Assembly (NCBI GenBank): GCA_012862575.1
Contig: BLSF01000023.1
Span: 1-64,000 of the forward strand
DNA from: Parietichytrium sp. I65-24A
Taxonomy: Eukaryota; Sar; Bigyra; Thraustochytrida; Thraustochytriidae
Reading direction: 5' to 3'
Length of the DNA stretch: 64,000 bases
Each line of letters starts with the position of its first letter. Position 1 is the stretch's first letter. Below the pieces are notes generated by a model. That model saw only the letters and a list, made by a program, of their open reading frames with translations. It was not told the DNA's origin and made no database searches. Shown here piece by piece: positions 2,635-47,788 of the stretch. The position numbers and the translations under genes are program-made.

Positions 2635-2831
2635 TCGGATGGACTTCAATTCTCCTAAACCAAACTAATCTTCTGCATTTCTCTCGCCTTCTCTGGTCCT
2701 TTTGATTTCCTATCCTCTCAGAGGACGTTGCGATGCATCTTGTGCTCAAAGGAAATAATCTAATCACTTGGAGGAAATCTAAACTAAACTGAATTCATAG
2801 TAACAAGAAATAGGAGCGAAAATGAAACTCT

Positions 2832-3408: not shown

Positions 3409-4339
3409 TTTTCCACCCCCCTTTTTGACACAACCTCAACCAACTGCAAACCCGCAGACTGGCCCACATCAACGAACAAAACACATCAGCAAACAAAACA
3501 AAACAAAATAAAACACACACAAACACATGCGGGCACCCACCAACCATGAGCGTTAGCGTCTCCCGCGCACTCGGCGATATCGTCCCACCACCTAAAGTCC
3601 CCCACAACGACAACGACAACGACAATAACAATAACAACGACAACGACACCGACAACGACCCGTCCGCCACTCACCAGCGCAAGTCACTCCCGCTTCTCCT
3701 GCTTGCCGTGGACGACTGCTCTCCGTCTCGATCCTACGCTCCTACGCTCCTACTCCAGCTCCTGTGCCAACGCCGTATGCCTGCTCTGCCTGCTCTGCAC
3801 TTCTTCGATGTTTGGCGTGTTGTTTTGATTGATTGAGTAGATTGACATTGTGAGTTGGTTGATTGATTTTTAGAGAGTTTTTCAGAACATTGATAGAAAC
3901 TTGGTGTCAATCGAGAAGGGTCGCCGGCTACCGGCTAGCTATGGTTAACTGGTAGTGCACCACCTGCGAAACCGTCTCTTCTTAGGGTTATTCGCATGAT
4001 TTGGGAGTAGGGGTGGTTGTAGTCGATTGGGTAGCTAGCCTAGTCTGGCTTCGTTAGGTAGTGTTGGTTAGGTGATTCCGGTAATAGATGGCGAGTACGA
4101 GGCGGTTAGTACCGGTAACTTCAGAGTATTCACTGTCAATTCCGGAGTGCAACTGGTGCAATTTGATCTTGAAGCGGACGGGCTGTGCATGGAAGAAAGT
4201 GTGGTTCGCAAGAAGGTAATACAGGGCTCGACAAAGTTGAATGAACATTTTGAATTCCGATGTCTTTACAATTGTGTTGGGATAGTACGTAATGGTCAAT
4301 GTTTGAGATGTTCAATCTGATCTCAGGATGTGGACAGCA
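3409..4339. other. gene-free interval with ACAACG repeat
   Basis: No protein-coding gene is supported here. Positions 3606-3660 hold an imperfect (ACAACR)n hexamer tract, which opens several frames without making a plausible protein. A pyrimidine-rich stretch at 3409-3425 lies just 5' of the HSBP1 start on its coding strand and may belong to that promoter. Confidence 0.6.
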
Positions 4340-16957: not shown

Positions 16958-17486
16958 TACGCGGGGACCGATCATTCGTTCGTTCGTTCATTCACGACAT
17001 GTCGCGATGTATGTGATGTACTCACAGTCAGTACCGGTATGTAATTTCCTTTCGGGTTCCTGCGACGAGAACCCACTCTCCCTCCCTCCCAAAGAAAGAA
17101 CCCAAGACCGTTACATCCCACTACTGATGGGGTAGCGCAAATAATAGGGAACTCGTTAAAAGGCTTTTTAGAAGGGGCGTTTTGAGTGTGTCTTCCTCAC
17201 AAAGTGGACAAAGAAAGGCAAAATTTTGGGACTTTTGCTGTGAGGAGTGTGAGGAGGGAGGGCACTCGAGGGAACGATAACTTTGGCGCAGGAAATTCCG
17301 CGAATCACAGTGTGATTAAGGTGTGGCTATCGAATGCTAACCAGCAGTGTGTAGGTGTCGGCATACGGGAGTCGAAAGTATTGACAGTGCCGTGGGAGAA
17401 GGCTGAAAGAGTCGCCAGAGCAGATGTCAGCACAGCCCAAAGGCATTTGACGAAAGTTCAGCCCGGACGAAGTGAGACGGGCGAAG

Positions 17487-20400: not shown

Positions 20401-20990
20401 CGCCATACTCTGGATACTTTCATGTCGGAATCGAGGTGTTGCTCGATCTGAATGGCAATCTAATTATCAACCCGAACTTTATCGAGAAAGTAGCTGTTGG
20501 GAAGACGTGGAAAGCGCCAAGAAAAAGGATGCACTTTATGAGTCGGTACTGCCTGGCGCTTGTGCTGTGCTCTCGCAGACGGCATGGCCCGTCTTGGGAG
20601 ATGCCACTCTGGATCAGCGTGCTAAACCGCATGATTTTCTTTGCACAGTCTGATCTGATCGCGCGGGAAGAAAAGCTGCAGGATGACGTCAGGGATATAT
20701 TTCTGCGGGACGGAATTGTTTTCGGCAGCAAACGAACAATTTCGTGCCAAACGGACTCGCAGCCTGTCGAACTGGATCACCTCTCAATAGTTGTAGATGC
20801 TCCGACAGCACCTACTCCTGAAAATGACACCTCAGCTCCGACCCCTTCGGCCAACACTGGTACGATTCCCCCGTCTATCGAATCTGTCTTGGATCAGCTC
20901 CGGGCCGCGAACCAAGCCTCACTCCTTCAACAGGACGCAATGGAGTGGCTCACTCTGCTCATCAACACTGCGAACACTGGCCACTCGTAA
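17487..20990 (+). CDS. polytopic membrane lipase, class 3 (diacylglycerol lipase-like)
   Basis: This is a predicted membrane acylglycerol hydrolase of 1167 residues. The N-terminal half has about nine hydrophobic spans (near residues 23-45, 63-86, 106-125, 168-188, 355-375, 385-405, 420-442, 462-482 and 527-548) with a long acidic loop between spans 4 and 5. The C-terminal half carries the class 3 lipase domain: VIITFRGTVSGVNVKTD near 812, the nucleophile elbow GHSLGGG near 896, catalytic Asp in LAGDVIPRTP and His in GYFHVGIEV. The complete triad suggests an active enzyme. Diacylglycerol lipases have four spans, so this extended membrane part is unusual. The frame begins at GTG 17472; the first ATG is 17487 (MVEIVIANF). 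A basic KKRKRKLRK patch lies near residue 765. The gene is intronless. Confidence 0.88.
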   Translation: MVEIVIANFKLEVLRKKSLKWLYGASIFTYALSVAGAATIMLLFVQSHCKDLMTIDHEDYAEALVIINGVVYTVGGLLLVWLVLAYPQRIILKAWKSDWKPLPQQMILIVLIVTFNFIPLFSIYRSVMYWNSMAEGLRIASKNSLCLIAVLRSISDLHHDKVVGMSNFGMAVIYLIWASTISISGLLTKEAVTRRALQRLPLMRKRALSAMLERQSSSNTLPDNNNIQLGDILGGDGAIATLHEEGVPDSSNFKEKDIEEVEEEVEDGALDDSVMSKLIKEEGGANEDSVQGKCSSWRHQCWSAKMSFTAFLEAMFPAFQLEEQESDAQVRRLIQDGQDGRVLLSEPTSLELMRNGVTWGFLIFLVVYVALIWTIESIYQFTYGIFPFVGAISLFRVCFALDAEGHYCCDPSKYRVSFLRAVWSSVFVVLECLIFVYIVILARRTRRVLAQVPYNQNRSNYLAFIYMQSTMTMMWFFAGISSLLDLSTPNIEYYLKEVVWNPDSKMIDVQFNPLYTVGITPYTPGFSYIYLAVVLWIFGFAFVLLPADSVGWRGWWVGSEEGSETVQSHLRHYMLPTFENAAEPGQHEEQQHSVAMALTMGEFWAEHPLYISDEASFAALHEKTSRSSPPGEQRRDSPAGFPAARPSRANGLHALTRFPSRLRKHLSSSLGTVPRLHREYSLLRQVMQNTNPHNFHIFNQIMSPVLVMETELSLLNYAQIAYMARASKRGDAVNADDELQEEREAESDFGGATPAQRTSKKRKRKLRKLLESTDADPSKLIEDNDSTFVEHVIDAETDTHALIAYGEDRVIITFRGTVSGVNVKTDLDFGLREYPMASGVVARPQESNMDKRAALLVPKVHGGFLKAFGNVSKRIMELVLPLLMDGEVQRRALLCTGHSLGGGLAVLCAFEFGVHLYRIFGRPGKIQVTTFGCPRVGSYSFCERFARVVPCARRFVLAGDVIPRTPPRLFTAPYSGYFHVGIEVLLDLNGNLIINPNFIEKVAVGKTWKAPRKRMHFMSRYCLALVLCSRRRHGPSWEMPLWISVLNRMIFFAQSDLIAREEKLQDDVRDIFLRDGIVFGSKRTISCQTDSQPVELDHLSIVVDAPTAPTPENDTSAPTPSANTGTIPPSIESVLDQLRAANQASLLQQDAMEWLTLLINTANTGHS

Positions 20991-23046: not shown

Positions 23047-24141
23047 ATGGCTTCAGGACTCCAAGCGCCAATAGCGGACGAGCCGCCATCAGGAGCGTAC
23101 GCAGTGGCAGGGGCAGCGTCTGGAGTGTCCAAAGGGAAGGTCTTTGCTGGCCTCCTCGCAGCTGGGCTGGTTGCAACAGTTGTTGGGATCACCACAACCT
23201 CCGGGGCGAACCCTGACGATGACACTTCGACCAGCAACCTGCGAAATCCAGAGACAGACGTGCCAGTGTTTGGTGCTCCATCCTGCGGGTGCTCGGAGGC
23301 TCGCTTTGTGATTAATTGTGCAAGCTCTCTAGAATTCTCAGTTTATGACAATGATGTCTTGAGATTCCAAAACACTAGTTCGGATGCTTTCTCAGAAGCA
23401 CTTGATGTGACCTTCGCGATCACATCCGCAACCTCCGTGGATATTACCTGCACTGACATGGGCACTGTCGAGGCACAAGGAATGATTGCCACGGCTTCAT
23501 TTTGTAACAAGCAGTACTTTACCACTGAGCCAATAAGCATGACCCAGGACGACTTCCTGTTCTACATGAAGTCGATCGAACCAGACTCAGTCCCTACAGA
23601 GCCACTCGTATACCAAGAGTCTGACTACTACACTGAAGCGGGCGACATCGAGTTGCAGAATGAAGACGCATTTTGGGTGTGGGACACATCTGCAGAGAAA
23701 ACTCTTTCTTTCGGTTTCGATATGACCTCACTGGGCAACAGCTGCAGCGCTCCAGTCGCCGCGCCAACAACCGCTTCAGGTTCTCCAACTTCGTGGCCAA
23801 CCGCATGGCCAACCGCATGGCCAACAACGCCAACGTCTTTGCCAACCGCATGGCCGACTGTGCCAACACCTAGCCCAACAAGGCCACCAATCCCCCCTGG
23901 CACGACTTACTCCCCAACCGGAAGCCCAACAAAGCAACCAACGGCAAACCCAACAAAGGCCCCTACAGAGAAACCAACTGGAGCCCCAACAAGAAATCCG
24001 ACGAAGGCCCCGACAAAGGAGCCAACTGAGGCTCCAACGAAAGCACCGACTACTCCATACCCAACCAAGGCACCGACTACCCCATACCCAACCAAGGCAC
24101 CGACACCTTGCCAAACAAATTGGCAAGGCTCCTGCGTGTGA
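23047..24141 (+). CDS. signal-anchored surface protein with a Pro-Thr repeat tail
   Basis: No enzyme family is recognised. The 364-residue protein has a short N-terminal segment and one hydrophobic span at about residues 32-48 (VFAGLLAAGLVATVVGI). That suggests a signal anchor with most of the chain outside the cytosol. Residues 75-235 form a globular part with several Cys and an aromatic acidic end (EDAFWVWDTS). The rest is a stalk rich in WPT, SPT, KAPT and KEPT units, closing with CQTNWQGSCV. Such x-PT stalks are common in stramenopile secreted and surface proteins and are probably O-glycosylated. The final two Cys could close a loop. The start ATG directly follows a GA-rich leader. A similar stalk occurs in the TRP-like gene at 45566-47788. 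Confidence 0.8.
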   Translation: MASGLQAPIADEPPSGAYAVAGAASGVSKGKVFAGLLAAGLVATVVGITTTSGANPDDDTSTSNLRNPETDVPVFGAPSCGCSEARFVINCASSLEFSVYDNDVLRFQNTSSDAFSEALDVTFAITSATSVDITCTDMGTVEAQGMIATASFCNKQYFTTEPISMTQDDFLFYMKSIEPDSVPTEPLVYQESDYYTEAGDIELQNEDAFWVWDTSAEKTLSFGFDMTSLGNSCSAPVAAPTTASGSPTSWPTAWPTAWPTTPTSLPTAWPTVPTPSPTRPPIPPGTTYSPTGSPTKQPTANPTKAPTEKPTGAPTRNPTKAPTKEPTEAPTKAPTTPYPTKAPTTPYPTKAPTPCQTNWQGSCV

Positions 24142-31302: not shown

Positions 31303-32970
31303 ATGGACTACGCAAAGGAAGGCGCCAACAGCAAGGGACCGCGGAGACGCAGGTCTATGGGCGCCGCGCAAGATGTGGAGGCATGCAAGTCCGTGAAGGT
31401 GTTCGGCATCTTGCTCCTGTTGCTGTTTTTGTTGTACATAGTGTCTTTCAGCATGGGCGCAGGCGCGCACAGGGAGCCTTTGTTTAGGGAAGTGGCGACG
31501 AGTGGCGTGCAAGACTTCGCGTCCGCGTTGGCGGAGACGGCCGAAGAGGTGGTCGAATCCGCTGGCCCAGTTCTTAAGAGCCAAAGCGAAGGGGACCTGG
31601 AATCCATCAATCAGATCCAGAACCTCGACAATATTTTAGACGAAGAAAGCGAGCATGAGGAAAGCGATGAAGGAGAAGACTTGACAGCGACAGACTATGA
31701 CCCTTCCGTAAACCCCGCGGAACCTTATTGCATTGACGATATTCCAGGCTTGAAGAATGTCAAGGTCATCTACGGCAACCTGACCAATGCCTTCCGGTAC
31801 TCGAAGCGGAATCAAATCAACACGAGGTTTGATCTTCCCCGGGTATTCCCAGTTGACGTTCGTATTTTTAAGCGCGCCGTAAAGAACAAGCGACAGGTTT
31901 GCGTATTTACCCGGACGCCTCGTCAAGACTCGCTTTTTAAGACCAACATCCTCTCCATGTTTGGTAGTGGCGAGTACAACTATGCTATTATGCGTTCCAC
32001 TCAATGCCAACATGACGGAACATGTACCTCTCCAGACATGGCAAAAGCCCATCCCCGCTGTAAACCGCATCTTCAACCTACGATTCACTTGCTCGAGCGA
32101 ATCAAAAACTTTCAGCATGAGCGATTTGCTCAAGTTCTAACCAACGGCATGGAGTACTATGATGTTTTGGTGAGCACAGGGGACGAATTCTGCCGCGCAA
32201 CCAACAACTTTGGCCGCGCCCATTTTCGAACCTACGCTGGTCAGAATGTCGTGAACGCCTCTTTGCAGACGCCTGTTTACCTGCCTCTAGGTCCTCGCGA
32301 GGAGTTTGAGCGCGTGCTGCCTCGCGAGATCCGTCTTGTTCGGGACAGAAAATACGTCTTTAATTTTCTAGGCAGTTTGACCTCACCAGCGAGACGAGAC
32401 CTCACCAAGGTGGTCAGATTGCAACTGAAGCGATTCAAGAGCTTCTTACACGTCGTGGCCAAGTGGAGCAAAAAGCTTACGCCTCAGAATGGCTATGTCT
32501 TTCCAGGACAGTACAAGCAGGTCCTGCTGAGAAGTGTTTTTACGCTTTGTCCGCAAGGTCACAACCCCGAAGCTTACCGAATTTACGAGGCATGTGAGGC
32601 AGGTTCCATACCCATCATTGTGCTTGACTCGCACTATCGCCGACACGAGTGCAAAGGCGCGTTCGCCCCTCTTCTCCAGCAAGGAGCGCCTTTTGTCGTG
32701 CTCAACAATTGGCTCGAGCTCCCCGGTTTCTTAGACAAAATCATGAAGCACCCGGACCGCATTCAGCAGATGCAGGCTGACACAATGGCGTGGTATTCCC
32801 AATTCATGAAGAAAGTTGCTCAACAGTTTGAGAATGTTATGGAGCTGCGGTTCCAAGACCGCATGGACCGAGGGGACTTCACTTCCACGAAAGATCTCTC
32901 CAATGTTGAAGCCTATCTGAGTGACCCAAAATACATCAAGCCTCTCACTGAAGGCATAATAGCGACCTGA
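31303..32970 (+). CDS. exostosin-like glycosyltransferase (GT47), type II membrane protein
   Basis: This is a predicted Golgi glycosyltransferase acting on cell-surface or extracellular polysaccharide. The 555-residue protein has a basic cytosolic tip (GPRRRRS), one signal-anchor span at about residues 33-50 (VFGILLLLLFLLYIVSF) and an acidic stem (about 75-135). The lumenal domain carries exostosin hallmarks: YVFNFLGSLTSPARRDLT, then FTLCPQGHNPEAYRIYEAC followed by AGSIPIIVLD. The donor and acceptor sugars cannot be read from sequence. It is a single exon. The ATG at 31303 follows a purine-rich leader. Confidence 0.88.
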   Translation: MDYAKEGANSKGPRRRRSMGAAQDVEACKSVKVFGILLLLLFLLYIVSFSMGAGAHREPLFREVATSGVQDFASALAETAEEVVESAGPVLKSQSEGDLESINQIQNLDNILDEESEHEESDEGEDLTATDYDPSVNPAEPYCIDDIPGLKNVKVIYGNLTNAFRYSKRNQINTRFDLPRVFPVDVRIFKRAVKNKRQVCVFTRTPRQDSLFKTNILSMFGSGEYNYAIMRSTQCQHDGTCTSPDMAKAHPRCKPHLQPTIHLLERIKNFQHERFAQVLTNGMEYYDVLVSTGDEFCRATNNFGRAHFRTYAGQNVVNASLQTPVYLPLGPREEFERVLPREIRLVRDRKYVFNFLGSLTSPARRDLTKVVRLQLKRFKSFLHVVAKWSKKLTPQNGYVFPGQYKQVLLRSVFTLCPQGHNPEAYRIYEACEAGSIPIIVLDSHYRRHECKGAFAPLLQQGAPFVVLNNWLELPGFLDKIMKHPDRIQQMQADTMAWYSQFMKKVAQQFENVMELRFQDRMDRGDFTSTKDLSNVEAYLSDPKYIKPLTEGIIAT

Positions 32971-34096: not shown

Positions 34097-37000
34097 ATGC
34101 GCCTATCGTTGGCGGCGCTGTGCTCCGCGTTTGGAGTGGCAGCGAGTGTGGCTGCACAGAAGGCGGAACTCGAAAATGACGCAGGTAGCTTCTTAGCACA
34201 TCTCTCGCCGAGCGATGCATATGTCAACTTTGGGGCAAGCATGATCGAATATATCGTCGCAACGCGGCACTTTGATGCGGAATCTGGAGATTTTAGGTAT
34301 CGTGGACCATTGGAGCTCGAGGAAGAGATGCAAGTGGAGCGAACCAAGATCAACTTCGCCAACCATCTTCGACGGAGTTTTAGGCAGTTTTATCCAGAGC
34401 GGGCGGCGCAGAGCAATACAACTGAAGAGGAAGAACTTCGAACTTTGCCATACTTTGTGGCCGCGGACGTTGCTCAAATCCTTAGGTCAGAGGGATTCAA
34501 CGTCCCATTCACGAGCCTAAGTCTTCGGTCATCCGATAGCGCCCGTGCAGCGGACCTTCATGCTGAACGGGAAAGAAGTCTGGCGGAGTCAGGGAGACGG
34601 AATTTGTTCACCTTTCCAGTAATTTGTGATGACGACTGTACCACCAGTCTGATTTGTTGGGGCATATCACAAGCCATCGAGGGCCTCGGGATGGAAGAAA
34701 CTTGTAATTTGGTTGAGAAAATTCAACAGATCGCGGCTGATTCCTGGACAGTGTCGGACATATTGCGCGAGCTCCCGGACTTTATGGACAATGTCAAAGG
34801 AATACAGTCCGTCGCGGGAATTATTTCTTTTGTGCAGTGTGGAAAAACTGCCACGATTTTTTCAGCATACAGCGTGTATGGTGACGAAGCGCTCTACTAT
34901 TACCCCAAAGCGATGTGCCAGAGCACGACGACCTTTAGCGGGTGCCTCACGGAGCTTTTCAAGGTCGTCTATCTTCTCCTTGTGAATCCAATCGTTAGTT
35001 TTGTTCCTGAAGATCTGCAGAGCATGCTGAAAGATATCTCGACTCTGCTATTGCAGTTGAAAGCTGGTGTGGGAGGAATTTGCACGTCTCTCGGAGATAT
35101 CGGCTTGCTGCAAGGAAATGCCCTGTCGTTTTTTGACGACTGGGAGGCTCTCTTTGATGTCGTGACAACCTCTGCTGGCAATAAAGTGACAAAGATGGAG
35201 CTTCTTTTGTCTTCGCTTACGAAACTTACCAGCTATGAACTTCTTAACGACTTCCTGCCTCAGATTCCTCGAGGATGTTCCAGTGTAATTTCAAACGCGG
35301 CAGCACAAGTCTACACCAGCGTCTTTGATTCCACATCGGCAACTTCTGCAGAGGAGATCCCGGAAAAGATCTGTGATTCTCTTGGGGCTACATCGGTCAT
35401 AGACTGCTTGGTTGGGCTTACAACCAACCTCGACTCTGTTGATTGGATAGCGTCCGCGCTCGGGAATGGGAACCTCCACGTTCTCGCCGAGCAAGTGCTA
35501 CCGAGACTCTGCACGGCCATTCAGGACATCGACGGCCTAGGAGTGGAGGATATTTTCACCGAGCTTCCGTTCATACTCAGAGTCTACCAGGACCTTGGAT
35601 TGAGCATTCTGGAATCATTACTTCCTGGGGTCCACACTGTGCTTATGGACTGCGCTGAGGACTTTGCTTCCCTCGTAGAGTCTCTGGACGCTACAATATC
35701 CTCCGACGACGTGCGGGGAACCATGCAAATTGTCTGCAGTAACAGGGTGTCTGAGAACACATGCATACTGAGGTTGTCTGACAGCCTTGACGAACTCGCT
35801 TTTGCAAGGGATGCGCTGGGCAGTGGAACACTGCGAACAGTGTTCGCGAATCTGCTGCCGCGAGCATGTGTACTCACCGAGAAAGTTGTTCCCTTCTCCA
35901 ATGAAGACAGCGACGATGTCCTTGGATCTATTTCTGTGACCAACCTATTGCAGGTCCTTCCGGATATTGTTGAGTGGTACAAATCGGTGGCTGCGCTTGA
36001 GCCCTTGAAAAACTTGCTTCCCGCTTGGCCGACAGAGTGTTCCAGCTCGCTCCTGGAGGAAATTGCGTCCGACATTTCTGCTGGATTGGACGATTCGTCC
36101 CTCATTGTAGAAAAGGTCTGTACATTGACGCAGTCCGAGCAAAGCAAGTGTCTCATGGCTCTCGCGCTTTCCTTCGAGAACAGCGACCTTGTCAATCCTC
36201 TGTTTACATCTGCTGTGGCTGAGTCTGGCCCGTACGAGGTGATGAGTGCGCTGGTGGAGAACTTGCTTCCCGAGGTTTGCCAAGCTGTTGATCAGTCTTC
36301 AATTGACGTTTCCGACATCATCCGTGCCGTACCATCGCTTTTGGACGCGTATAGAGCCTTAGACATAATACCTCTTCGCGAGAGTTTCCCCGAGGTTCAT
36401 GAATTCTTGATGGACACGGCCTGTGCGCAAAAGCTGGATGAATTGGTAGCAGTAATTGCGAATGTCGTTGACGGTTCGGACGCAGACCCTGTGCGAACAC
36501 TATGTGCTACACTAAGCCATCACTCTTGCCTGATCCAACTTTCAGACGCCCTTGACCATGTCTCCGCGCTGACAACGCAAATTGGCGTCGGCACACTAAA
36601 ATTGGTTGTCGACGTGGTAGTCCCGGACACATGCGACGCAATCGTTACGGCTGCGTCGAGCTTTGATGTTCAAAATTTGGTAGCAAATCTACCGAGCCTT
36701 CTCAAGCTGGTGGACAAGCTTGGAGCTGTGGAAGCGACTTCAGAGTCTGGTGTCATTTACCCTCTCCAGCAATACATTCCGCAGCTTCCTACAGACTCTT
36801 TCTGTCGCAATGCCTACGTGCAGATTGCAGACGAGTTCGTTTCGTTTGCCTACGATTCAACGTACTCCTTTGCAGTCCTCATTTCCGAAGTCTGTGTGTC
36901 GTGGCCTTCTCTGGGCTACATTCCGTGCCTTGTAAAGCTCGGCGACTCAATTGATCAAGTCGAGTTTATCAAGAGTTTGCTCGGAGGCCCTGGCCTTCTC

Positions 37001-40000
37001 CAAACTGTTGCGACGACACTTCTTCCAGGCGCGTGCGAGCTGTTGAGTCCGGAGTCCAATCTGGTGGACTGGAATTCCACAGGAATCATCGAATCCCTTC
37101 CGGTCATTCTGGAATGGTACGAGAATCTACAGCCGAATGCACCGGACTTTGTGAAAGGCTATCTTCCAGACTTTCCGGCAGAGCAATGTTCAGACAGTAT
37201 CATCAGTGGATTTCAAACGCATTTCCAGTATGCATACGTTGACGGCAGCGTCGATATCGGAAAGGTGTTGAAAGTGCTGTGCTCCTTACTCTCTACTGAA
37301 GAAAAAGCCTGTCTAGTTGCACTTGGAGATGCCATCGACGACGCTGATTTGCTTGCCTCTGCACTCTCACTTCCGGCTGGCACAATTCAGTCGGTGGTTG
37401 ACATTTACCTTCCTCAAATATGTAATGTGCTTGGTGACGAACTCGGAAATGTCAGCGTGGAGAATATCGTCCAAAAGATCCCTGAACTTTTAAGGTTCGT
37501 CACAAACCTTAGAGAGACTATGCCTGCGTTCGTGCAAGAGTATTTACCAATCATCCCGCATGAGCAATGTGATGCCAGTTACAATTCAACTGCAAAGAAG
37601 CTTGCTGAGAGTTTGCAAGAAGAGGGAATAATGAAGATCCCGGCTGTCCTCTGCGCCCTGGAAGCAAGTGAAGTCGAATGTCTCGCCATGTTTGGAGACG
37701 CGCTCGACGCTGTTGAATTTGTGAAGGACCTCGTCGGGGAAACAGGCTTAATTCGCTACACAGTGTACACACTTCGGGAGTTTGCTTGCAGCGTCCTTGA
37801 TGACGTGGAGGACTTCGATTTTGCTGGAATCGCCACTGCGCTTCCAAAAGCGGTAGAGATCCTGGACAACTTGTTCACCAAGTACGCCTTTCTGCAGGAA
37901 TTCCTGCCAGCCGTTCCTACAGCTTGCAAGACTCAAATCACTCCCTTGGCGGCTACATTAGCAGAGGCCATCGAAAATGCAAATGGTCAAGATCTCGAGG
38001 TGGTTGTCCCAACGGAGCTTTGCAAAGCTGAAGCTGAAACCCAGACTTGTCTTGCAGATCTTGGAAACAGCCTTGAGCAGGTTGCTTGGGTCACAAGTAT
38101 GGTTCCAAACGTCGAGTCGATCGTTCTTGATTTGCTCAAACTATTGCCGGTCGTATGCGCGATTGTTTTTGACGTGAATACCTCTGGCACATCGTTTTCA
38201 GATCCCGACGTGCTCTTGAGGTACTTGCCGACCGTGATGTCTTTGTTTGATAGTCTCTCGCAGATATCGTTTTTTGATGACTACCTTCCAAGTGTTTCGG
38301 AGAATTGCATGTCAGAATACCACACCATCGCGAGTGCTATGGCTCTGCGTGGTCTTAGCGGAGTGCCCAAGGTACTGTGCACCATGATCGACGATCAAGT
38401 CAAGGCCTGCTTCATAGACACGGCGGAGAGTATGTCGAAGATGGACGCCTACAAGGGAATGATACCTGATGGGCTTGTTGCCAGCCTGCTTGACTCTCTC
38501 CCCTCTGCCTGCGAGATCATTGATTCCCTAGGGACGTTTGATTACGAGAGCATTATAGGATCCATTCCTCTTGTGATTGACTATGTGGAAAAACTGAATA
38601 CGATCTCGTCCATCCGGGCTTACATTCCCGATATCTCGTCAGACTGTGCCACTGTCTATAAATCCTCTTTGGTTCCGCGATTTCAGGCCAGTGAACCTCT
38701 GCAAGCCATCTGTGGAATAACTTCCGCAGAAGAAAAGTGCTTCATGGACCTGCTCTCCGACCTCACGAGTATTCCCTTCGTTGCTGAGCTCGCGAGCTCG
38801 CAGCTTGATGTTACCTCTGCAAATGTTCCCGTCGTTGTAATCTCTCTAACACAGGCCGTGTTCAACCTCTTGCCTGAGGTTTGTGCTCTGGTTGAGAGCA
38901 TCCAAGATTCGGCTGAAACGATGACCATCGCCGATAACGCCTTTCTGATTGTTCCAAAAGTATTGGATGTTTTCGACCAACTGAGTCAATACGAAAAGCT
39001 GGACGAATTCTTGCCGCACATCGATGCATCCTGCTCGAGCAATTATCGCGCTATGTTCACGTCCGGCAGTAGTCTGGTGGAGCAAGATTATGTTGCTATG
39101 CTTCCAAGGGCGCTGTGTGAGGTTCTCCTTGTCACATATCCTGAGGTCCCCCAGTGTTTGGTCGGCCTTGGAAGCGAAATTGATCAGCTCTCTTTCATTT
39201 CCGCTGATATGCACATTGGATCGATGCTGACGGCTTTGACCTCCATGCTACCATTAACTTGTGATGTCATCAACCAGGTGATCGTTCCTCCTCTGGGATC
39301 AATCAACTTCACAGCAGTATTTGATGTGGTGCCTTCGCTTGCTGACATCTACATAGCGCTGCAAGCAAGTTTGCCCAGCGCTCTCTCCGACTACGCACCT
39401 CCGTTTCCGCAAGAAGCGTGCACATCCTCAGTTTTGGCTTCCATCTCGTCCAAGGTAAAAGTTGCCGTGTTGCAGAATAGCACGGATATCCCCTTGCTGC
39501 TCTGCTCAGAGTTGACCGGCACAGACAGGGAGTGCCTTGCGTCTCTCGGTGACGCCATAGACCAGATTTCAATCGTACAGGACATTCTGGGACGTAAGGG
39601 TCTTATAAGAGAGCTTGTTGGCGAAACTGTTGACGGGTTTTGCGCTCTGCTCGACGCGAACATGTTGGGTGTTGGAGTTTTGCTTGGGAAACTCGACACG
39701 GTACTCTATGTAATTGAAAGAGCGCGAGCAATCGCGCCAGACTTCTTGCAGGAGTACCTCCCAGAAATCCCGGGCGGGGAGTGCCAAACAACGGCATATC
39801 CGCACACTGCTGCGACGCTCAAGAATTTTACGACCTATAGCGTCTGTCTCCTCGGTCCCACTGAACTCGAATGCCTCGCATTGCTCGGAGACAATCTCGA
39901 GGAAACTCCCGTCTTTGTCGAGATTCTGTATGGTGATGAAGCTGTTGCTGCGACCATCAAAGCCAAGGAATCCCATAAAAGTTTGATGCGCATCCTAATG

Positions 40001-43000
40001 GAAGCGATACCAAGTATTGTGTGCGAAGTGATGAATGAGCTGGGTGAATTTGCCTTCTCCAGTTTTGTGAGCCAGCTCCCTGCTCTATTCACTCTGGTGA
40101 ACACTCTCACCGAGTACCCTTTGTTGCAAGAGTTTGTGCCATCGATTCCTGACTCATGCATGACCAACGTTGACGACATCGTGAGCCAGTTGCAAGACGA
40201 AACTCGTGACCCTGTAAGCCTGCTGTGCTCGATGTCTGCCGAAACAATGGCTTGCCTGCTCGATTTTGGGGAGAGTATAGAAAATACGCCGTGGACATCT
40301 TCTCGAGTACCGAACGCTACAGGTGTTGTGCAGGCTACATTGGACATTGTTCCTGTGGTGTGCAGCCTAATCGAGTCTGACGAAGAAATCTCGGATGCTG
40401 ATATTTTGCGCCATATTCCCCAGATCTTGGACCTGTTTTTTAAACTCGATAAAGTTGCACTCGCCAACGAACTCTACGACGTTGACGTGGGAGATGTGTG
40501 TAGATCAGATCTGGCAGAGCTCGGCAACGATTTGTCACTTCTCGACTCGATTGGGATGATACCTGATAGTCTGTGCGCTGCGTCATACCGTTCATTGGAG
40601 TGCTTAGGTCTCGTTGGTTCAAACATCGAGCATTTACCAGTGATCTCTACCATGATTCCGGAAGGATTAATTTCGAGCGTCGTGAGTGTGTTCCGCGAGA
40701 GCGCCTGCCCTATCATTCAAAGTGCGACAGGAATGAATTTCACAGCAATCATTCAAGCTATACCGAAAGCGATGAATTTGCTCTCCGAGCTGGACGAAGT
40801 TAGTATCCTGGAGCCGTACTTGCCAAAGATTTCGCAATCGTGTAAAAACGTTTTGGGTGGCTCCGTCACTGACAAGCTTCAGGTGGCTGCTTCATTTACA
40901 GAAGCAAACAGCATTATTGAGATCAGCGCTGACATCGACTTTACTGGGCTGAGCTACCTTCTCTGCCAGTACACGGAAGAAGAGATTGGCTGTGTGCGTG
41001 AAGCAGCGCAGGGGATTGAGAATACGGAGTTTCTCAACACTGCGATCACCAGCTCGCTGCCTCTACAACCAAATGGCGAAAGCTATTCCGTGGTTGGTTT
41101 GGTAAACACTACTTTTGATATCGCTGAGTATGCTTGTACCTTGTTTGACACACTGGGGAATGTCCCCTACAACTTCATATTGTTGACAATCCGCGACGTC
41201 ATCAGCATCATGGACAAGCTGAATGAGCTTCCAGTGGTGAACGAGTACGTGCCTGACTTTCGCGATAGCTGCGTGGTGTCGCTTCGATCTTTCGTGGGAT
41301 ATGTCACCGGGCCTGACCCGCTGGACGATGTGTGCCACACCACTGCCGACGAGAAGGCATGCTTGGTGGAAGTTGCTTCGCAGCTTGATGATATTGCAGA
41401 GGTAAAGTTTGTATACCGTATCATGTCGGGTGACGCCTCCGCAAGTATGGAGTCAACAGTGAGAGATGTGGTGTATCAGGTATTGGATAGCGCTTGTGAG
41501 CTAATTCTCTCCTTTGGGGAAGACCTTGATGGGGCGAACATGGCCCATCTCTTCGGAAGCATTCCAACCTTCCTCACCGCAATGCAGAATGCTTCAACGA
41601 TCCCATTCTTCTCCAATTACGCCCCAAAGCTCTCGGAAACTTGTTATACGGAGCTTGGAGACTTTTTCAACTCAAAGGCAGATAAGGCTTACGAAGAGCT
41701 GGGCGCACTGAAGATTATGTGCCAGGGCGTTGACGCTTCAGTGCTTCAGTGCGTAGTGGAGCTTGATACTGTTTTTCAAAATGTCACCATGATCAGCCAA
41801 TACATACCAACTGGTCTCATTCCCGCTTTTGCAGAATCACTCGAATACGGCTGTCCTCTATTTTACTCTGATGTCACCAGCCGATCCTACAATCGGACGG
41901 AGCTGCTGTTGACAAATATACCAAAATTGATACGAAGCGCAATGAAAATCACGGGCTTGAATGCAACTTGCGTAGCTGATCTTTCACTTGAAGGGGCTTC
42001 GTTGTGTCAGCTGAATGAATCATGTTTGAGAACTTTTCTAGTGCGCCTCAGTGGAGTTCCCCTAATTGGCAGGTTCGTACCAAGTTGGGCATCAGATCTT
42101 GTTGTCGATATGTGCTCCATGGAATCCGGAACAGAATCTCTCGCTTGGTTGATCGAGAAGCACTTGGGCACCATTTTGCAGGCGCTGGCCGATCTCAATA
42201 GTATGCAGACACCTTGCAACTCAACGCTTGCAGCAATGGCCACTAAACTGGAAACTGACACGCTAACCGCTGCAGAGATATGCTCGGAGCTCACGGTGGA
42301 GCCCGCGGATGGCCAGGAGGAGTGTCTCGTGCAGGCCGTTGCTGGTCTGAGCGAGATCGCCCTAACGAGTTTTCTCGTGGTCGATGGAACAGATGAGCTT
42401 CTCCAGGCCTCGTGCGACTTTTTGAGAGAAGAGGAGCATTCCGTCTTTGCGCTGGTTCCCCATCTCGCTCCACTGTTACACGTTCTTTCTTTCGTCCTTG
42501 GCCAGCCTAGTGACGAGTGTGGCTATGAAGTGGCAGTCACATCCGAGAAATTGAAAGATCTCGAAGCGTTCGATTCTGTTGTGTTTTGCGAGGGAGTGAC
42601 CACCTCTTGTGCAACCGAGGTGGTAATGACGCTCCGGAAGTTGCCATTCATCGGTTCCGACATCCCCGTAGGCTCGGACGAGCTAATTGGAGTGACTTGC
42701 GCGATGATTGAAGATCGGACAAGCTACGTTGCGATCGTGGAACACATTCCGACTTTGTTCGATGTTTTGGGGAAATTGATCGCAGGCTCCCATCTAAACG
42801 TTACCGAAAGTTGTCGCACCGATGTGAAGTTGCACCTTTTCAACCGTGACGGTGACCTTGACTTGACAGGCATTTGTTTGTTTGAGCCGGAATGCCGCGT
42901 CACTTTAATCGCCTCGCTGGAATCTCTCCCTCTGGTTGGCCAATATGTCCCAGAGTCGATGGTGTCGCTGGTAGGAGATTTGTGCAGCTACGCGGAGGGC

Positions 43001-45307
43001 GTTGAGGCAGACGGGATTCTTAAGCTCACCGATAGCAAAGTCGACGAGAATGGTCTCCCGCGATATTTGCCTAGCATCCTGACAATTGTCGGAAAGATTT
43101 TGGGCGATGAGACCGAAGTCAGCCGGCGGGCATTGGATTACGGGGCAACGGAGAAACATGAATGTGGAGCGAAGATTCAGGCGTATGCTTTGGGTCTGAC
43201 CGTGCTCGACGTTGAAGACATGTGTTCAAACATCCCTGGCTATTGTATGGTTATGGTGGAAGAGATGCTGGAAAGGGTGCCTTTTATTCGCGAATTCGTA
43301 CCTAGCCGGTCTGGTGAAATGCTTGCCACCGCTTGCGATGCGATCTTGTACGGTGGATCGTCGAAACGATCTTTCGTGCAGGAGAGGCTGCCAAGTGTTC
43401 TCTCAATTGCCGCTTCAGTGCTGGACTTGGACGACTCTTGCAAAGCAGGGGTGGAAGCAGCAGCTGATGCTTTTAAAACGAGAGGTACACTGGATGGGAA
43501 GCTGTTTTGTTCTTCGATCACTGCACAGGGTGCGGATCAAACCACTTGCACTGAACAAGTCGCAGTAGGGCTAAGCAGCCTTCCCTTTGTGGGTGCGTTC
43601 ATTCCAAGCGGGGTGGACGATCTTCTGAGAGGCGTATGCGAGGTGATCTCTGGCCACACGTCCTTGCGTAGCTATCTGGAAACCGAAGGTCCCGTGCTGG
43701 TTGGACTCGCTAGCTTTGCTGCTGGCGTCGAAGAGACTTGCGCAACGCAGCTAAAAGCTGTCAAAGACGTTACTTCGGCGGAGGACCTGTGTTCCACTGC
43801 CGGCTCAGAATGTTTGAGTGAGCTATCGAGCGGGCTGGAGACGATCCCTATGCTTGGCAGTTATATTCCAGGAGGATTCAATCTCCTGTTTGAAGGCATA
43901 TGTGACTTTGTTCTTGCCAAAGAAAGTTGGATCACTTTTGCTCGAAATACTTTGCCAAAGCTCTTGGGCATAGTCGGAAAAGGGTTGACGGACAGTGATG
44001 TTTGCGCCTATCAACTGGAAACGTTTGGTGTCCAATCGATGGAGGCTGGGGCTGTCGATGTGGAAAGCATGTGCCGTATTGACGATAGCTGCGTCACTAC
44101 AATGGTCGAAGGTCTTGTGGACCTGCCATTGTGGGGCTCCTTCCTTCCTTCCGAGACCTCTGATGTTATATTCGAAGCTTGCAGTATCCACAGGGAAGAG
44201 GAGAAGAGCACCAAGTACCGCGGGGCGAAAATCAAGTTGAAGCACTTTTTCGTGAAAAGCTTTGGGGTCATTGTTGAATTCGCAAATAATCTCGCTCAGG
44301 TCGATGGGACCTGCAAAGCTCAGCTTGTCAGCTCTGCAGGTGCAGTTGAGAGGCAGTTTGCGTCAAACGGCAATATAAATCCCTTCGAGGCTGTCTGCAT
44401 TGAAGTAGAGCAGAGTTGCATCTCCGCATTTATTTCTTCCTATAGACAGCTTCCGCTCCTGAGTCAATTAGTCCCCGCCGGCACGGAGGTTTTAATTGAG
44501 CTGGTGTGCCCATTGGCTGGGTTTGAGAACTCTGAAGAATTGCTGACAGCCATGTTTATGCCTTTAGGGTTCTTGGACAATCTTACAGTCGCTCTTCCAG
44601 TGCTGCGGAGCTTCACGTACGAGGACACTGAATGCGCAGAAAAATTAGACGCAGCGGCAGCTTCGCCAATCGCAGGGACGGCAGAATCGTGGCCAACGAT
44701 TTTTGCCTGCCTCATCGGGGAGTCTTGCATGGGTGAGATTTTTGACCAAGTAATGGAGCTGCCTTTCGCGCAGCAAATGATGAGCTACTACACCGGACTT
44801 TCGGACGGTTCCTTTGATCAAACTCAAGTGGTGTCCGCGATGCGTTCAATCTTGGTGGAGCAACCTTGCCTCAAGAGCGCAACGGTTACCGAATCCCCTT
44901 CTCCGTCGAGCTTGACATCATCACAGCTCAGTCCGGGTGGTGTTGCTGGAATTGTTTTAGGAATTCTGGTGCTTATCACGGGCGTCTCTCTCTCGGTAGT
45001 TTTCTACCGCCGGAGGAAGCTTGGCGCAGACAATGATAGCGGTGGTAGAGGAACTCAGCGTTTGGACGGTGCTGCAAGCCAATCCATCGTGGCACGGCAA
45101 GAAATTGACAACTTTGACAAATTGTTTTCTAGCGAAGTAGAAATGCGCTCTACCTCTTCTAGACTCAGCCCAAAGAGTGTCGTGCCGGACAGTCGTCGTC
45201 TTCGTGGCGAGGGCAACGATTTGAGGGTGAAGCCTGCAAAAACTCGACAAAATCGAGTCCAGAAGAGCCATGATACCGCTTCTGAGCATGATGTGCAACT
45301 CCAATAG
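34097..45307 (+). CDS. giant type I membrane protein with about 27 Cys-containing helical repeats
   Basis: I do not recognise the family. One uninterrupted exon encodes 3736 residues. There is a signal peptide (about residues 1-20, MRLSLAALCSAFGVAASVAA), then a unique region to about 175. An ectodomain of degenerate tandem repeats follows, then one span at about 3614-3636 (GVAGIVLGILVLITGVSLSV) with RRRK after it and a 100-residue basic, Ser-rich cytosolic tail. Type A repeats (about 18, averaging 135 residues, to about 2620) follow a pattern: CL..LGD.ID.V.F, LLP..C..L, LP.VL, L.EYLP.IP..C, VP..LC. Type B repeats (about 9, near 100 residues) read L..LPL.G..VP, DLL...C..I, LP.LL, C...L. Type B looks like a shortened version of type A. 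Cys pairs recur, suggesting disulfide-stabilised helical solenoids. An adhesion or recognition role is inferred. Its convergent neighbour is also a surface protein. Confidence 0.85.
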   Translation: MRLSLAALCSAFGVAASVAAQKAELENDAGSFLAHLSPSDAYVNFGASMIEYIVATRHFDAESGDFRYRGPLELEEEMQVERTKINFANHLRRSFRQFYPERAAQSNTTEEEELRTLPYFVAADVAQILRSEGFNVPFTSLSLRSSDSARAADLHAERERSLAESGRRNLFTFPVICDDDCTTSLICWGISQAIEGLGMEETCNLVEKIQQIAADSWTVSDILRELPDFMDNVKGIQSVAGIISFVQCGKTATIFSAYSVYGDEALYYYPKAMCQSTTTFSGCLTELFKVVYLLLVNPIVSFVPEDLQSMLKDISTLLLQLKAGVGGICTSLGDIGLLQGNALSFFDDWEALFDVVTTSAGNKVTKMELLLSSLTKLTSYELLNDFLPQIPRGCSSVISNAAAQVYTSVFDSTSATSAEEIPEKICDSLGATSVIDCLVGLTTNLDSVDWIASALGNGNLHVLAEQVLPRLCTAIQDIDGLGVEDIFTELPFILRVYQDLGLSILESLLPGVHTVLMDCAEDFASLVESLDATISSDDVRGTMQIVCSNRVSENTCILRLSDSLDELAFARDALGSGTLRTVFANLLPRACVLTEKVVPFSNEDSDDVLGSISVTNLLQVLPDIVEWYKSVAALEPLKNLLPAWPTECSSSLLEEIASDISAGLDDSSLIVEKVCTLTQSEQSKCLMALALSFENSDLVNPLFTSAVAESGPYEVMSALVENLLPEVCQAVDQSSIDVSDIIRAVPSLLDAYRALDIIPLRESFPEVHEFLMDTACAQKLDELVAVIANVVDGSDADPVRTLCATLSHHSCLIQLSDALDHVSALTTQIGVGTLKLVVDVVVPDTCDAIVTAASSFDVQNLVANLPSLLKLVDKLGAVEATSESGVIYPLQQYIPQLPTDSFCRNAYVQIADEFVSFAYDSTYSFAVLISEVCVSWPSLGYIPCLVKLGDSIDQVEFIKSLLGGPGLLQTVATTLLPGACELLSPESNLVDWNSTGIIESLPVILEWYENLQPNAPDFVKGYLPDFPAEQCSDSIISGFQTHFQYAYVDGSVDIGKVLKVLCSLLSTEEKACLVALGDAIDDADLLASALSLPAGTIQSVVDIYLPQICNVLGDELGNVSVENIVQKIPELLRFVTNLRETMPAFVQEYLPIIPHEQCDASYNSTAKKLAESLQEEGIMKIPAVLCALEASEVECLAMFGDALDAVEFVKDLVGETGLIRYTVYTLREFACSVLDDVEDFDFAGIATALPKAVEILDNLFTKYAFLQEFLPAVPTACKTQITPLAATLAEAIENANGQDLEVVVPTELCKAEAETQTCLADLGNSLEQVAWVTSMVPNVESIVLDLLKLLPVVCAIVFDVNTSGTSFSDPDVLLRYLPTVMSLFDSLSQISFFDDYLPSVSENCMSEYHTIASAMALRGLSGVPKVLCTMIDDQVKACFIDTAESMSKMDAYKGMIPDGLVASLLDSLPSACEIIDSLGTFDYESIIGSIPLVIDYVEKLNTISSIRAYIPDISSDCATVYKSSLVPRFQASEPLQAICGITSAEEKCFMDLLSDLTSIPFVAELASSQLDVTSANVPVVVISLTQAVFNLLPEVCALVESIQDSAETMTIADNAFLIVPKVLDVFDQLSQYEKLDEFLPHIDASCSSNYRAMFTSGSSLVEQDYVAMLPRALCEVLLVTYPEVPQCLVGLGSEIDQLSFISADMHIGSMLTALTSMLPLTCDVINQVIVPPLGSINFTAVFDVVPSLADIYIALQASLPSALSDYAPPFPQEACTSSVLASISSKVKVAVLQNSTDIPLLLCSELTGTDRECLASLGDAIDQISIVQDILGRKGLIRELVGETVDGFCALLDANMLGVGVLLGKLDTVLYVIERARAIAPDFLQEYLPEIPGGECQTTAYPHTAATLKNFTTYSVCLLGPTELECLALLGDNLEETPVFVEILYGDEAVAATIKAKESHKSLMRILMEAIPSIVCEVMNELGEFAFSSFVSQLPALFTLVNTLTEYPLLQEFVPSIPDSCMTNVDDIVSQLQDETRDPVSLLCSMSAETMACLLDFGESIENTPWTSSRVPNATGVVQATLDIVPVVCSLIESDEEISDADILRHIPQILDLFFKLDKVALANELYDVDVGDVCRSDLAELGNDLSLLDSIGMIPDSLCAASYRSLECLGLVGSNIEHLPVISTMIPEGLISSVVSVFRESACPIIQSATGMNFTAIIQAIPKAMNLLSELDEVSILEPYLPKISQSCKNVLGGSVTDKLQVAASFTEANSIIEISADIDFTGLSYLLCQYTEEEIGCVREAAQGIENTEFLNTAITSSLPLQPNGESYSVVGLVNTTFDIAEYACTLFDTLGNVPYNFILLTIRDVISIMDKLNELPVVNEYVPDFRDSCVVSLRSFVGYVTGPDPLDDVCHTTADEKACLVEVASQLDDIAEVKFVYRIMSGDASASMESTVRDVVYQVLDSACELILSFGEDLDGANMAHLFGSIPTFLTAMQNASTIPFFSNYAPKLSETCYTELGDFFNSKADKAYEELGALKIMCQGVDASVLQCVVELDTVFQNVTMISQYIPTGLIPAFAESLEYGCPLFYSDVTSRSYNRTELLLTNIPKLIRSAMKITGLNATCVADLSLEGASLCQLNESCLRTFLVRLSGVPLIGRFVPSWASDLVVDMCSMESGTESLAWLIEKHLGTILQALADLNSMQTPCNSTLAAMATKLETDTLTAAEICSELTVEPADGQEECLVQAVAGLSEIALTSFLVVDGTDELLQASCDFLREEEHSVFALVPHLAPLLHVLSFVLGQPSDECGYEVAVTSEKLKDLEAFDSVVFCEGVTTSCATEVVMTLRKLPFIGSDIPVGSDELIGVTCAMIEDRTSYVAIVEHIPTLFDVLGKLIAGSHLNVTESCRTDVKLHLFNRDGDLDLTGICLFEPECRVTLIASLESLPLVGQYVPESMVSLVGDLCSYAEGVEADGILKLTDSKVDENGLPRYLPSILTIVGKILGDETEVSRRALDYGATEKHECGAKIQAYALGLTVLDVEDMCSNIPGYCMVMVEEMLERVPFIREFVPSRSGEMLATACDAILYGGSSKRSFVQERLPSVLSIAASVLDLDDSCKAGVEAAADAFKTRGTLDGKLFCSSITAQGADQTTCTEQVAVGLSSLPFVGAFIPSGVDDLLRGVCEVISGHTSLRSYLETEGPVLVGLASFAAGVEETCATQLKAVKDVTSAEDLCSTAGSECLSELSSGLETIPMLGSYIPGGFNLLFEGICDFVLAKESWITFARNTLPKLLGIVGKGLTDSDVCAYQLETFGVQSMEAGAVDVESMCRIDDSCVTTMVEGLVDLPLWGSFLPSETSDVIFEACSIHREEEKSTKYRGAKIKLKHFFVKSFGVIVEFANNLAQVDGTCKAQLVSSAGAVERQFASNGNINPFEAVCIEVEQSCISAFISSYRQLPLLSQLVPAGTEVLIELVCPLAGFENSEELLTAMFMPLGFLDNLTVALPVLRSFTYEDTECAEKLDAAAASPIAGTAESWPTIFACLIGESCMGEIFDQVMELPFAQQMMSYYTGLSDGSFDQTQVVSAMRSILVEQPCLKSATVTESPSPSSLTSSQLSPGGVAGIVLGILVLITGVSLSVVFYRRRKLGADNDSGGRGTQRLDGAASQSIVARQEIDNFDKLFSSEVEMRSTSSRLSPKSVVPDSRRLRGEGNDLRVKPAKTRQNRVQKSHDTASEHDVQLQ

Positions 45308-45565: not shown

Positions 45566-47788
45566 TCAGGAAAATGCAACGTCGCCAGCGGTATGTACAA
45601 TAGTGGTATTTTCAGGAGTGGGAGGTAGCACAAGGCGCTGTGTGGTGCTCTGTTGCTCGACAGCAATCGTCAATTTTGAGGCTTCGGACCCGTGCGAAGA
45701 CACATCAGACGCGTCATCTAGCTCGTCGAGAAGCGCAAATTTGGACTGCCTTGGGGCCACAGCAGGTGGCTGTTGCTCGCCGTATGTGACCGCCAGGGTT
45801 GCAGGTTGGGCTGCACGAGACACCCCGTCTTCGTGAGCCTTGCGCTCTGATCCTCCGACATCGGGCGCATTTGTCTGAGGGTGGTAAGGGGCGGGAGCAT
45901 AGCTTGTAGTTTTTGGCCGCGTCGCATCGAAAGTTGCTGCACCTGTGGGCCTCGTAGTGGCCGGGGATGACGTCGATGACTTGACTCTTATAGCTCTTGG
46001 TGCGGTCGCTTGGTCAAAGCGGCGGTTTGTGCCAACAGGTTTGGTCACAGTGCGCGGGAGTTCCCGCTTCCGTCCCGCTTTTTGAATGGAAATCGCGCCA
46101 GAGTCTTGCAAATCACTTTCGCTACTGGACGGCGAAATTTGCGGGTGTGAGTCATCAGTATCCCCCTTGTGAAGGCCTATGATCTGCGCATTCTTTGAAG
46201 GAGCCTTCTTTGCCTTTAACAGCATATGCGTAAAGTGCGCGACCCCGGCGACACAGAGAAACGCTAGACTAGCAACATTCACACCAACTTGTATTGAGCC
46301 TACAACGCGCATTGAATCCGACTCGATCAGAGCAGGGTAGGGACCGAATATGACTGGAAGAATTGAATTTACGAGGCTGAGCATCGCAACCAAATTGGCT
46401 AGCTTGTTCGCCGAGACGGAGATAAAAGGGGTTAACCAGAGCATGATAATGGAGTGCAAAATCGTGAGAGCGAGTAGAAACGCGGGCTGAAATGCGGGAG
46501 GATTGGCGACAAGGCCGAGAGCCAGCCCCCGCAGAAACGCCACGGAGACCTGGTAGATCCAGAAGAACCTCAGTCGGGGTTTAAACCCACTGCTCAAGGT
46601 ACTGCTGCTCGCGTCACCCTTGCTGAAGTAAGCCGCAAGCGCAATCCACACGAAGAAGAGCGTCAAGACCGCCCCGGCGAGGAGACACAACAACAAGCTT
46701 TCCACGTTGCAGTCACCAAGCGAATCCCTGCTTGCAAGAAATACCACAGAAAACGTATATGAGGAGAACAAAGCCAAAGGCAGCGCGCACATGTAGGAAA
46801 GCGAATGCAATATCCGGAGTACGAATTTTTTGAACGAAAAGGTTGCCTTCCACGATTGAAAGGCCTGCTGAGAGCGCCCATTCGTGACAACCTGTACTGC
46901 AAAGTTGGTCACAGCCACCACTACGAACAGGATGATGCTCGTGCAAATGTAATTTAAAATGATCATTTTGGGGGTCTTGGTGTCCTCGTCTGCGCAGGCG
47001 GAAAGGTAGAGCTCATCCTCGAAAGGAAAGTAACCGAGCAAAATCCACGAGAAGGATGCACTGTACTGAACGTAGTTGAGCGGGGCTGAAGGGAGATTCA
47101 TGACTGCACCAAAAGACGCCAATTGCGTAAAAGACAGAATTTCGAACGAAAGATTCAGCCACGATGGATGACCTTTCAATGGAGCCAGCACAAACGCAAC
47201 GAAGAGACTAATTGTCAAGAAGCAGATCCCAATCGCTCCAGCAGATCTCTCATGAATCTGGTATGTCACGCAGGCAGTCCCGTTCCAGTGAGACGATATA
47301 CCGCAGTCCAAAGTAGAGGATAGTCCCGTGATGCTCTCGCTCTCCGGAACGCTCTGTGCGGTTGGCGAGCTTGTTGGCAGATTTGAAGGTGACAAGTTTT
47401 GCGAAGGCGCTTGCGTCAAGGACGGGCCTGTTGGTGAGCCAGCCTGTGTTGGAAGGGGCGTTGGCGCAATCGAGTCAACTTGTGTGGGCTGTTTCGACGG
47501 CAATGACGTGGGGCTGATCGTTGGAGAGCGTGTTGGCGCCTCCGTCTCCGTCGGCTGACTTGTCGGCTTGGATGAAGGTGCCAAAGTCGGCGATCTCGTT
47601 GGGTCTCTGATTGTGGTAGGCTCCTTCGTCGGACTCAAGCTGGGAGCATTCGTGGTAGGACTTGGCGTCAAAAACGCAGTTGGCACTGAAGTCGTCGGTG
47701 CCAGGCTCCCCGCCGTGGGTTGCCCAGTCTGTGCATTCCCAACCGCCGCGGACCACAGCCACACCGCGGCCACCGCTACTCCCCGCAT
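45566..47788 (-). CDS. polytopic TRP-like membrane protein with a Pro-Thr stalk
   Basis: This 740-residue protein has a signal peptide (about residues 1-19, ending VGNAQ), then a stalk of about 130 residues rich in SPT, APT and KPT. A two-Cys segment (LDCGISSHWNGTACVTY) follows, then about nine hydrophobic spans between residues 180 and 515. The cytosolic tail of about 225 residues is Pro/Ser/Thr-rich. The span arrangement and the FKPRLRFFWIYQVSVAFLRG loop recall the TRP-like domain of fungal Flc/Pkd2 proteins, but I cannot confirm homology. A channel or flavin-carrier-like role is a guess. The Pro-Thr stalk replaces the secreted lipid-binding domain found in Flc proteins. The gene is convergent with the giant repeat gene, 258 bp between stops. 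The start is a true ATG. Confidence 0.7.
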   Translation of the reverse strand: MRGVAVAAVWLWSAAVGNAQTGQPTAGSLAPTTSVPTAFLTPSPTTNAPSLSPTKEPTTIRDPTRSPTLAPSSKPTSQPTETEAPTRSPTISPTSLPSKQPTQVDSIAPTPLPTQAGSPTGPSLTQAPSQNLSPSNLPTSSPTAQSVPESESITGLSSTLDCGISSHWNGTACVTYQIHERSAGAIGICFLTISLFVAFVLAPLKGHPSWLNLSFEILSFTQLASFGAVMNLPSAPLNYVQYSASFSWILLGYFPFEDELYLSACADEDTKTPKMIILNYICTSIILFVVVAVTNFAVQVVTNGRSQQAFQSWKATFSFKKFVLRILHSLSYMCALPLALFSSYTFSVVFLASRDSLGDCNVESLLLCLLAGAVLTLFFVWIALAAYFSKGDASSSTLSSGFKPRLRFFWIYQVSVAFLRGLALGLVANPPAFQPAFLLALTILHSIIMLWLTPFISVSANKLANLVAMLSLVNSILPVIFGPYPALIESDSMRVVGSIQVGVNVASLAFLCVAGVAHFTHMLLKAKKAPSKNAQIIGLHKGDTDDSHPQISPSSSESDLQDSGAISIQKAGRKRELPRTVTKPVGTNRRFDQATAPRAIRVKSSTSSPATTRPTGAATFDATRPKTTSYAPAPYHPQTNAPDVGGSERKAHEDGVSRAAQPATLAVTYGEQQPPAVAPRQSKFALLDELDDASDVSSHGSEASKLTIAVEQQSTTQRLVLPPTPENTTIVHTAGDVAFS

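Follow-up and report, generated by a model that had tools for sequence, protein, structure and literature searches.

What is the giant protein encoded by the single frame at 34097-45307 (+) of a 64,000-nucleotide window (the whole stretch of DNA analysed: contig BLSF01000023.1, positions 1 to 64,000) from the thraustochytrid Parietichytrium sp. I65-24A, and what might it do? The frame runs uninterrupted from ATG to TAG, without an internal stop, and encodes 3736 residues. At a confidence a little short of even, the product is tentatively identified as a type I giant tether or adhesin of the thraustochytrid surface, which would consist of about 29 homologous, stapled, all-helical units.

A first-pass annotation of this DNA had described one long frame that encodes a signal peptide, tandem repeats, a single membrane span near the C terminus and a basic tail, and this layout was borne out (Table 1), the signal peptide being judged by eye. 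The Kyte-Doolittle profile peaks at 2.58 over a 19-residue stretch starting at residue 3618, and the motif RRRK directly follows the span. The ectodomain (residues 21-3630, roughly 390 kDa) is acidic, with an isoelectric point (pI) of 4.2, and the pI of tail residues 3656-3736 is 9.4. In its sequence features, namely a signal peptide, a tandem cysteine (Cys)-rich ectodomain, one span and a short tail, the protein has the architecture of a type I giant repeat surface protein. The protein's topology, its size and its content of Cys favour an extracellular position, and we infer a surface location. A dibasic RR at residues 167-168 (34595-34600), nine residues ahead of the first ectodomain Cys, is a possible processing site.

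The protein contains 121 Cys residues, of which Cys9 lies inside the signal peptide and the other 120 lie beyond it, grouping by four. This grouping resolves the ectodomain into 28 complete four-Cys units plus one partial unit at each end. Unit lengths are 111-152 residues for units 1-18, 95 for unit 19 and 92-116 for units 20-28. In the complete units, the four cysteines (C1 to C4) are separated by 5-13 (C1-C2), 29-49 (C2-C3) and 33-64 (C3-C4) residues, with 11-40 residues from C4 to the first Cys of the next unit (C1'). In all nine short units the C2-C3 gap measures exactly 29 residues, compared with 33-49 in the other 20 units.

The statistical reality of the repeats was assessed by a leave-one-out test on 29 units, in which each unit was scored against a profile built from units 2-28 minus the tested unit and minus unit 19, with 20 shuffles at fixed Cys positions and 20 full shuffles as controls per unit. 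Units 1-28 (28 of the 29 tested) scored 21.3-79.0 bits, compared with at most 10.3 bits for the best shuffle, while unit 29 was weak (8.0 bits versus shuffles of at most 5.5). A chance or low-complexity origin of the repeats is rejected by these scores. When the N-terminal piece was searched alone, residues 199-240 of unit 0 matched the long-unit profile (16.2 bits, E 1.4e-6). Unit 19 scored 26.8 bits in the leave-one-out test and matches the long- and short-class profiles at 16.0 and 14.1 bits, respectively. One row of the unit alignment (42596-42883) begins with M instead of V, a GTG having been read as a start; no effect is expected. In a simple autocorrelation of the protein the peaks were weak (z 3.4 at 126 residues).

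The 18 long and nine short repeats counted by the first-pass annotation correspond to units 1-18 and 20-28, to which unit 19 and the partial end units are now added. Tandem repetition held up; the length of about 135 residues assigned to the long units did not, given the measured spread. Mean identity is 25.5% (15-38%) inside the long class (units 2-18) and 25.6% inside the short class (units 20-28). Alignment of the two classes with hhalign (probability 95.8, E 6.7e-9, 77 columns) indicates, at the level of sequence, that long and short units are related by homology. The proposal that the short class is derived from the long one is therefore upheld as to relatedness but not as to direction, since homology alone was shown.

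The order of the units retains a record of how the array grew. Of the 12 offsets compared among units 2-18, mean unit similarity is highest for units six places apart (p 0.004 by permutation). The best-scoring run of units in matching order has units 6 and 12 as its first pair, a score equalled by none of 2000 unit-order permutations for block lengths of 4, 5 and 6. The two copies were also seen in the genome search, where query residues 3-464 of 467 were matched (E 1e-47). As judged from these comparisons, units 6-11 and 12-17 are the two copies of an old six-unit block duplication, newly found here. The duplicated block may be five units long rather than six, because the pair formed by its sixth members, units 11 and 17, is weak (score 69.5, close to average). 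Self-comparison of the coding sequence at the DNA level gave no match at E<=1e-3; a recent expansion of the kind seen in variable-number tandem repeats is thus rejected, and because no DNA-level copies were found, the array is taken to be old and degenerate and its duplication to be old. Together, the old in-order block duplication and the lack of DNA-level repeats argue that the array is conserved rather than in rapid change.

No known family was recognized in the unit. Pfam gave no model at cut-off in the whole protein, in units 2-28 scanned singly, in 13 two-unit segments or in eight segments cut in another phase. The best matches in PHROGs (E 0.032) and NCBIfam (E 0.069) each concerned one of 27 units, profile searches against PDB sequences gave best E values of 0.22-0.57, and the GTDB, viral and phage collections, none of them of eukaryote genomes, contained no match to the repeat protein. 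In the organism's own genome, five protein queries (threshold E<=0.001 for one and E<=10 for four, with 36503-37099 and 41720-42586 not covered) found only this gene, save for one 49-residue match at E 0.225. Among the titles and abstract starts listed in a light check of the literature, none mentions such a repeat. A known family was rejected as the identity of the unit because the matches obtained were weak or below cut-off; the first-pass annotation had likewise been able to match it to none. On the evidence of the Pfam, NCBIfam, PHROGs, PDB, GTDB, viral and phage searches, the unit is probably an undescribed stapled helical domain. A sub-cutoff Leukocidin match of the N-terminal region (residues 21-186; E 0.04, 14.2 of 22.4 bits) was taken as chance.

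Structure prediction gave an all-helical unit, as the first-pass annotation had supposed for the repeat. The AlphaFold2 single-unit model (28 alignment rows) has a mean predicted local distance difference test score (pLDDT) of 85.9 and a predicted template modelling score (pTM) of 0.67. The two-unit model (13 rows; pLDDT 75.7, pTM 0.63) is helical, save for two 2-residue strand or bridge stretches. With the single-unit model as query, Foldseek matched nothing in the PDB or among viral structures at E<=0.001. The disulfides, the function and a solenoid shape of stacked units are inferred, and the roles named in the first-pass annotation (adhesion, mating, prey capture or scale attachment) are possible ones.

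The Cys count itself suggests how the residues might be paired. When six simple pairing schemes were compared with the 120 Cys, an even number, only that joining C2 to C3, and C4 to C1' of the next unit, left both ends free of unpaired Cys; the other five schemes all left one Cys over at the C end, together with an odd number at the N end. The parity argument is one of counting, and assumes that every Cys is paired, in a pattern that repeats, with Cys203 and Cys248 taken as C3 and C4 of unit 0. On this basis the Cys residues are presumably oxidised and paired C2-C3 and C4-C1', and disulfide stiffening is proposed because of the parity. The predicted helix positions in the single-unit model fit the C2-C3 bond fairly well and the C4-C1' bond less well.

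If this arrangement is correct, each unit would carry two local disulfide staples with an unstapled helical linker between them, and the resulting chain or rod of units would resist unfolding under pull. A long, load-bearing tether of this kind could run from the plasma membrane, or the membrane of the ectoplasmic net, to a substrate, the wall or an adjacent cell; ligands might be contacted by the Cys-free N-terminal region or across the long units, and the short units would serve as a stalk near the membrane. Passages of a study of Aurantiochytrium limacinum describe thraustochytrids as settling and attaching via the ectoplasmic net, and report 18 lineage-restricted proteins that increase at settlement, most of them unannotated by standard methods (PMC12221091). 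The molecular parts of the net are little known, those proposed in that study being candidates (PMC12221091). A large, distinctive surface protein would therefore offer a concrete target for knockout or tagging. The repeat profile is directly usable against other stramenopile proteomes. A more specific proposal, in which the unit would found an undescribed disulfide-stapled all-alpha family with a fold new to the PDB, and the gene would encode a giant tether, confined to labyrinthulomycetes, that belongs to the ectoplasmic net or the bothrosome, is considered doubtful.

Several observations weigh against a stapled tether. In the single-unit model, C4 (position 91) sits where a 22-residue helix starts, and C1' (position 119) where the following 10-residue helix ends; straight helices would keep the two from facing each other, which weakens the C4-C1' staple, and in unit 19 just 11 residues separate them. 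The parity argument rests on the labelling of Cys203 and Cys248 in a partial unit, and the stacking of successive units remains hypothetical. The tail (residues 3638-3736) has no Pfam match at E<=1. In addition, none of the 18 A. limacinum candidates is described in Table 1 of that study as a giant four-Cys repeat protein, the comparison being one of descriptions only (PMC12221091).

Other explanations differ in which part of the proposal they replace. The unit might be a very divergent member of a helical fold already known, such as an ARM/HEAT-like or saposin-like one, and have escaped the searches; this is unlikely but has a concrete point in its favour in BIG2_C, the strongest Pfam match. 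This match was obtained with the segment of units 14-15 (20.4 bits, cut-off 27, E 5.7e-4), its best stretch being in unit 15 (residues 2082-2125; 40340-40471); in longer segments and in the whole protein it falls at the same place in unit 14 (residues 1968-2006; 39998-40114), and it disappears when unit 14 or unit 15 is scanned singly. BIG2_C is accordingly treated as the most promising link to any known helical family, and no membership is claimed.

The remaining alternatives concern function. The thraustochytrid wall is scaly, and the ectodomain might fasten this wall to the membrane rather than act as an adhesin towards outside surfaces. One span, a basic tail and a very long ectodomain would suit such an anchor, and a gene for an exostosin/RXYLT1-type glycosyltransferase lies upstream (31303-32970); however, gene neighbours in eukaryotes are weak evidence for joint function, and an ectodomain of such low pI would not readily be expected to bind acidic polysaccharide, and we consider a wall or scale anchor improbable. 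Thraustochytrids are also osmotrophic, and a giant endocytic or scavenger-type receptor, whose units bind ligands such as lipids or proteins for uptake, would be compatible with the type I topology and with about 29 units which, at roughly 25% mean identity within a class, could differ in specificity. The lack of a recognised domain in the tail and of any unit matching a ligand-binding family over cut-off make a receptor rather more improbable still. Giant repeat surface proteins do perform mating or aggregation work in some other protists, yet none of the ten neighbouring frames covered by a Pfam scan points to mating and the five own-genome queries revealed no paralogue, so that a sexual agglutinin or cell-cell recognition protein seems very improbable here. 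The tentative assignment as a surface tether or adhesin is retained.

Table 1. Parts of the giant repeat protein and their positions in the window.
Feature	Residues	Coordinates (strand)	Remarks and basis
Signal peptide	1-20	34097..34156 (+)	MRLSLAALCSAFGVAASVAA; judged by eye
N-terminal region without Cys	21-176	34157..34624 (+)	read from sequence
Partial N-terminal unit 0	177-273	34625..34915 (+)	Cys177, 181, 187, 203, 248; long-unit profile match
Long-class units 1-18	274-2541	34916..41719 (+)	four Cys apiece, unit 1 divergent; Cys grouping and profiles
Units 6-11, first copy of six-unit block		36893..39115 (+)	permutation test and genome-search match
Units 12-17, second copy of six-unit block		39116..41332 (+)	permutation test and genome-search match
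Unit 19, transitional between classes	2542-2636	41720..42004 (+)	profile scores
Short-class units 20-28	2637-3537	42005..44707 (+)	profiles and constant C2-C3 gap
Partial C-terminal unit 29 and Ser/Pro/Thr stalk	3538-3615	44708..44941 (+)	Cys3538, 3544, 3591; weak profile score
Single membrane span	3616-3637	44942..45007 (+)	Kyte-Doolittle, letters checked
Basic tail	3638-3736	45008..45304 (+)	charge

Among the surrounding genes, the tail-to-tail neighbour at 45566-47788 (-) encodes a PT-rich N-terminal part and a multi-span part with a sub-cutoff TRP match (PF06011, 23.4 of 28.5 bits). An N-terminal hydrophobic stretch was judged by eye in the product of the frame at 23047-24141 (+), whose long tail of PT repeats scored 25.8 of 26.2 bits with Pfam PT. 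A Lipase_3 protein with hydrophobic segments is encoded at 17472-20990 (+); a published report has Lipase_3 proteins found specifically in thraustochytrids, a parallel drawn here by family name only (PMC6841712). Although mitochondrial COX2 and the 386 codons covered of COX1 are 64% A+T, none of their 71 Leu codons is TTA and 41 are TTG, as expected if TTA is a stop, a use that a passage on Thraustochytrium aureum reports (PMC5203790). This codon use suggests a thraustochytrid-like labyrinthulomycete. Two partial copies of COX1 overlap and run the same way, which may be an artefact of assembly, and a PF00124 search found no photosystem gene.

How does the protein compare with known systems? 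Saposins, with six Cys in a set order, are likewise small, secreted, all-helical disulfide domains that can occur in tandem, whereas the present units contain four Cys at other spacings and gave no saposin model at E<=1 (27 scanned, units 2-28); a saposin fold was not among the Foldseek or VIA matches listed, which excludes nothing. The elicitins of oomycetes are also secreted stramenopile all-helical Cys domains of about 100 residues, but have six Cys in another spacing, compared with four here, and no elicitin match was obtained with Pfam at E<=1 in units 2-28; we know of no elicitins in 29-fold arrays. CHCH and alpha-hairpinin domains carry two CX(n)C motifs on paired helices, while each unit here has one close Cys pair and two further Cys far apart. 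The TPR, ARM and HEAT alpha-solenoids share tandem helical units, to which the sub-cutoff BIG2_C likeness at units 14-15 may be added; the present units differ in their length (92-152 residues) and four invariant Cys, and none of these models reached cut-off.

The candidates of A. limacinum provide a comparison of another kind, that of a lineage in which such a surface protein could act; as far as the source describes them, these are 18 ectoplasmic-net or bothrosome candidates, several with extracellular and transmembrane parts (PMC12221091). The giant surface proteins built from EGF, Ig or cadherin-type beta repeats have in common with the present protein a signal peptide, a disulfide-rich ectodomain, one span and a short tail, whereas the repeat here is predicted to be all-alpha. 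The all-helical model and the lack of a Pfam match place the unit outside EGF, Ig and LRR repeats, consistent with the earlier remark that its Cys spacing resembles neither these nor saposins. Giant tethers of other eukaryotes are mostly made of beta domains, and one made of about 29 stapled helical units would, if correct, represent a different tether design with different mechanics.
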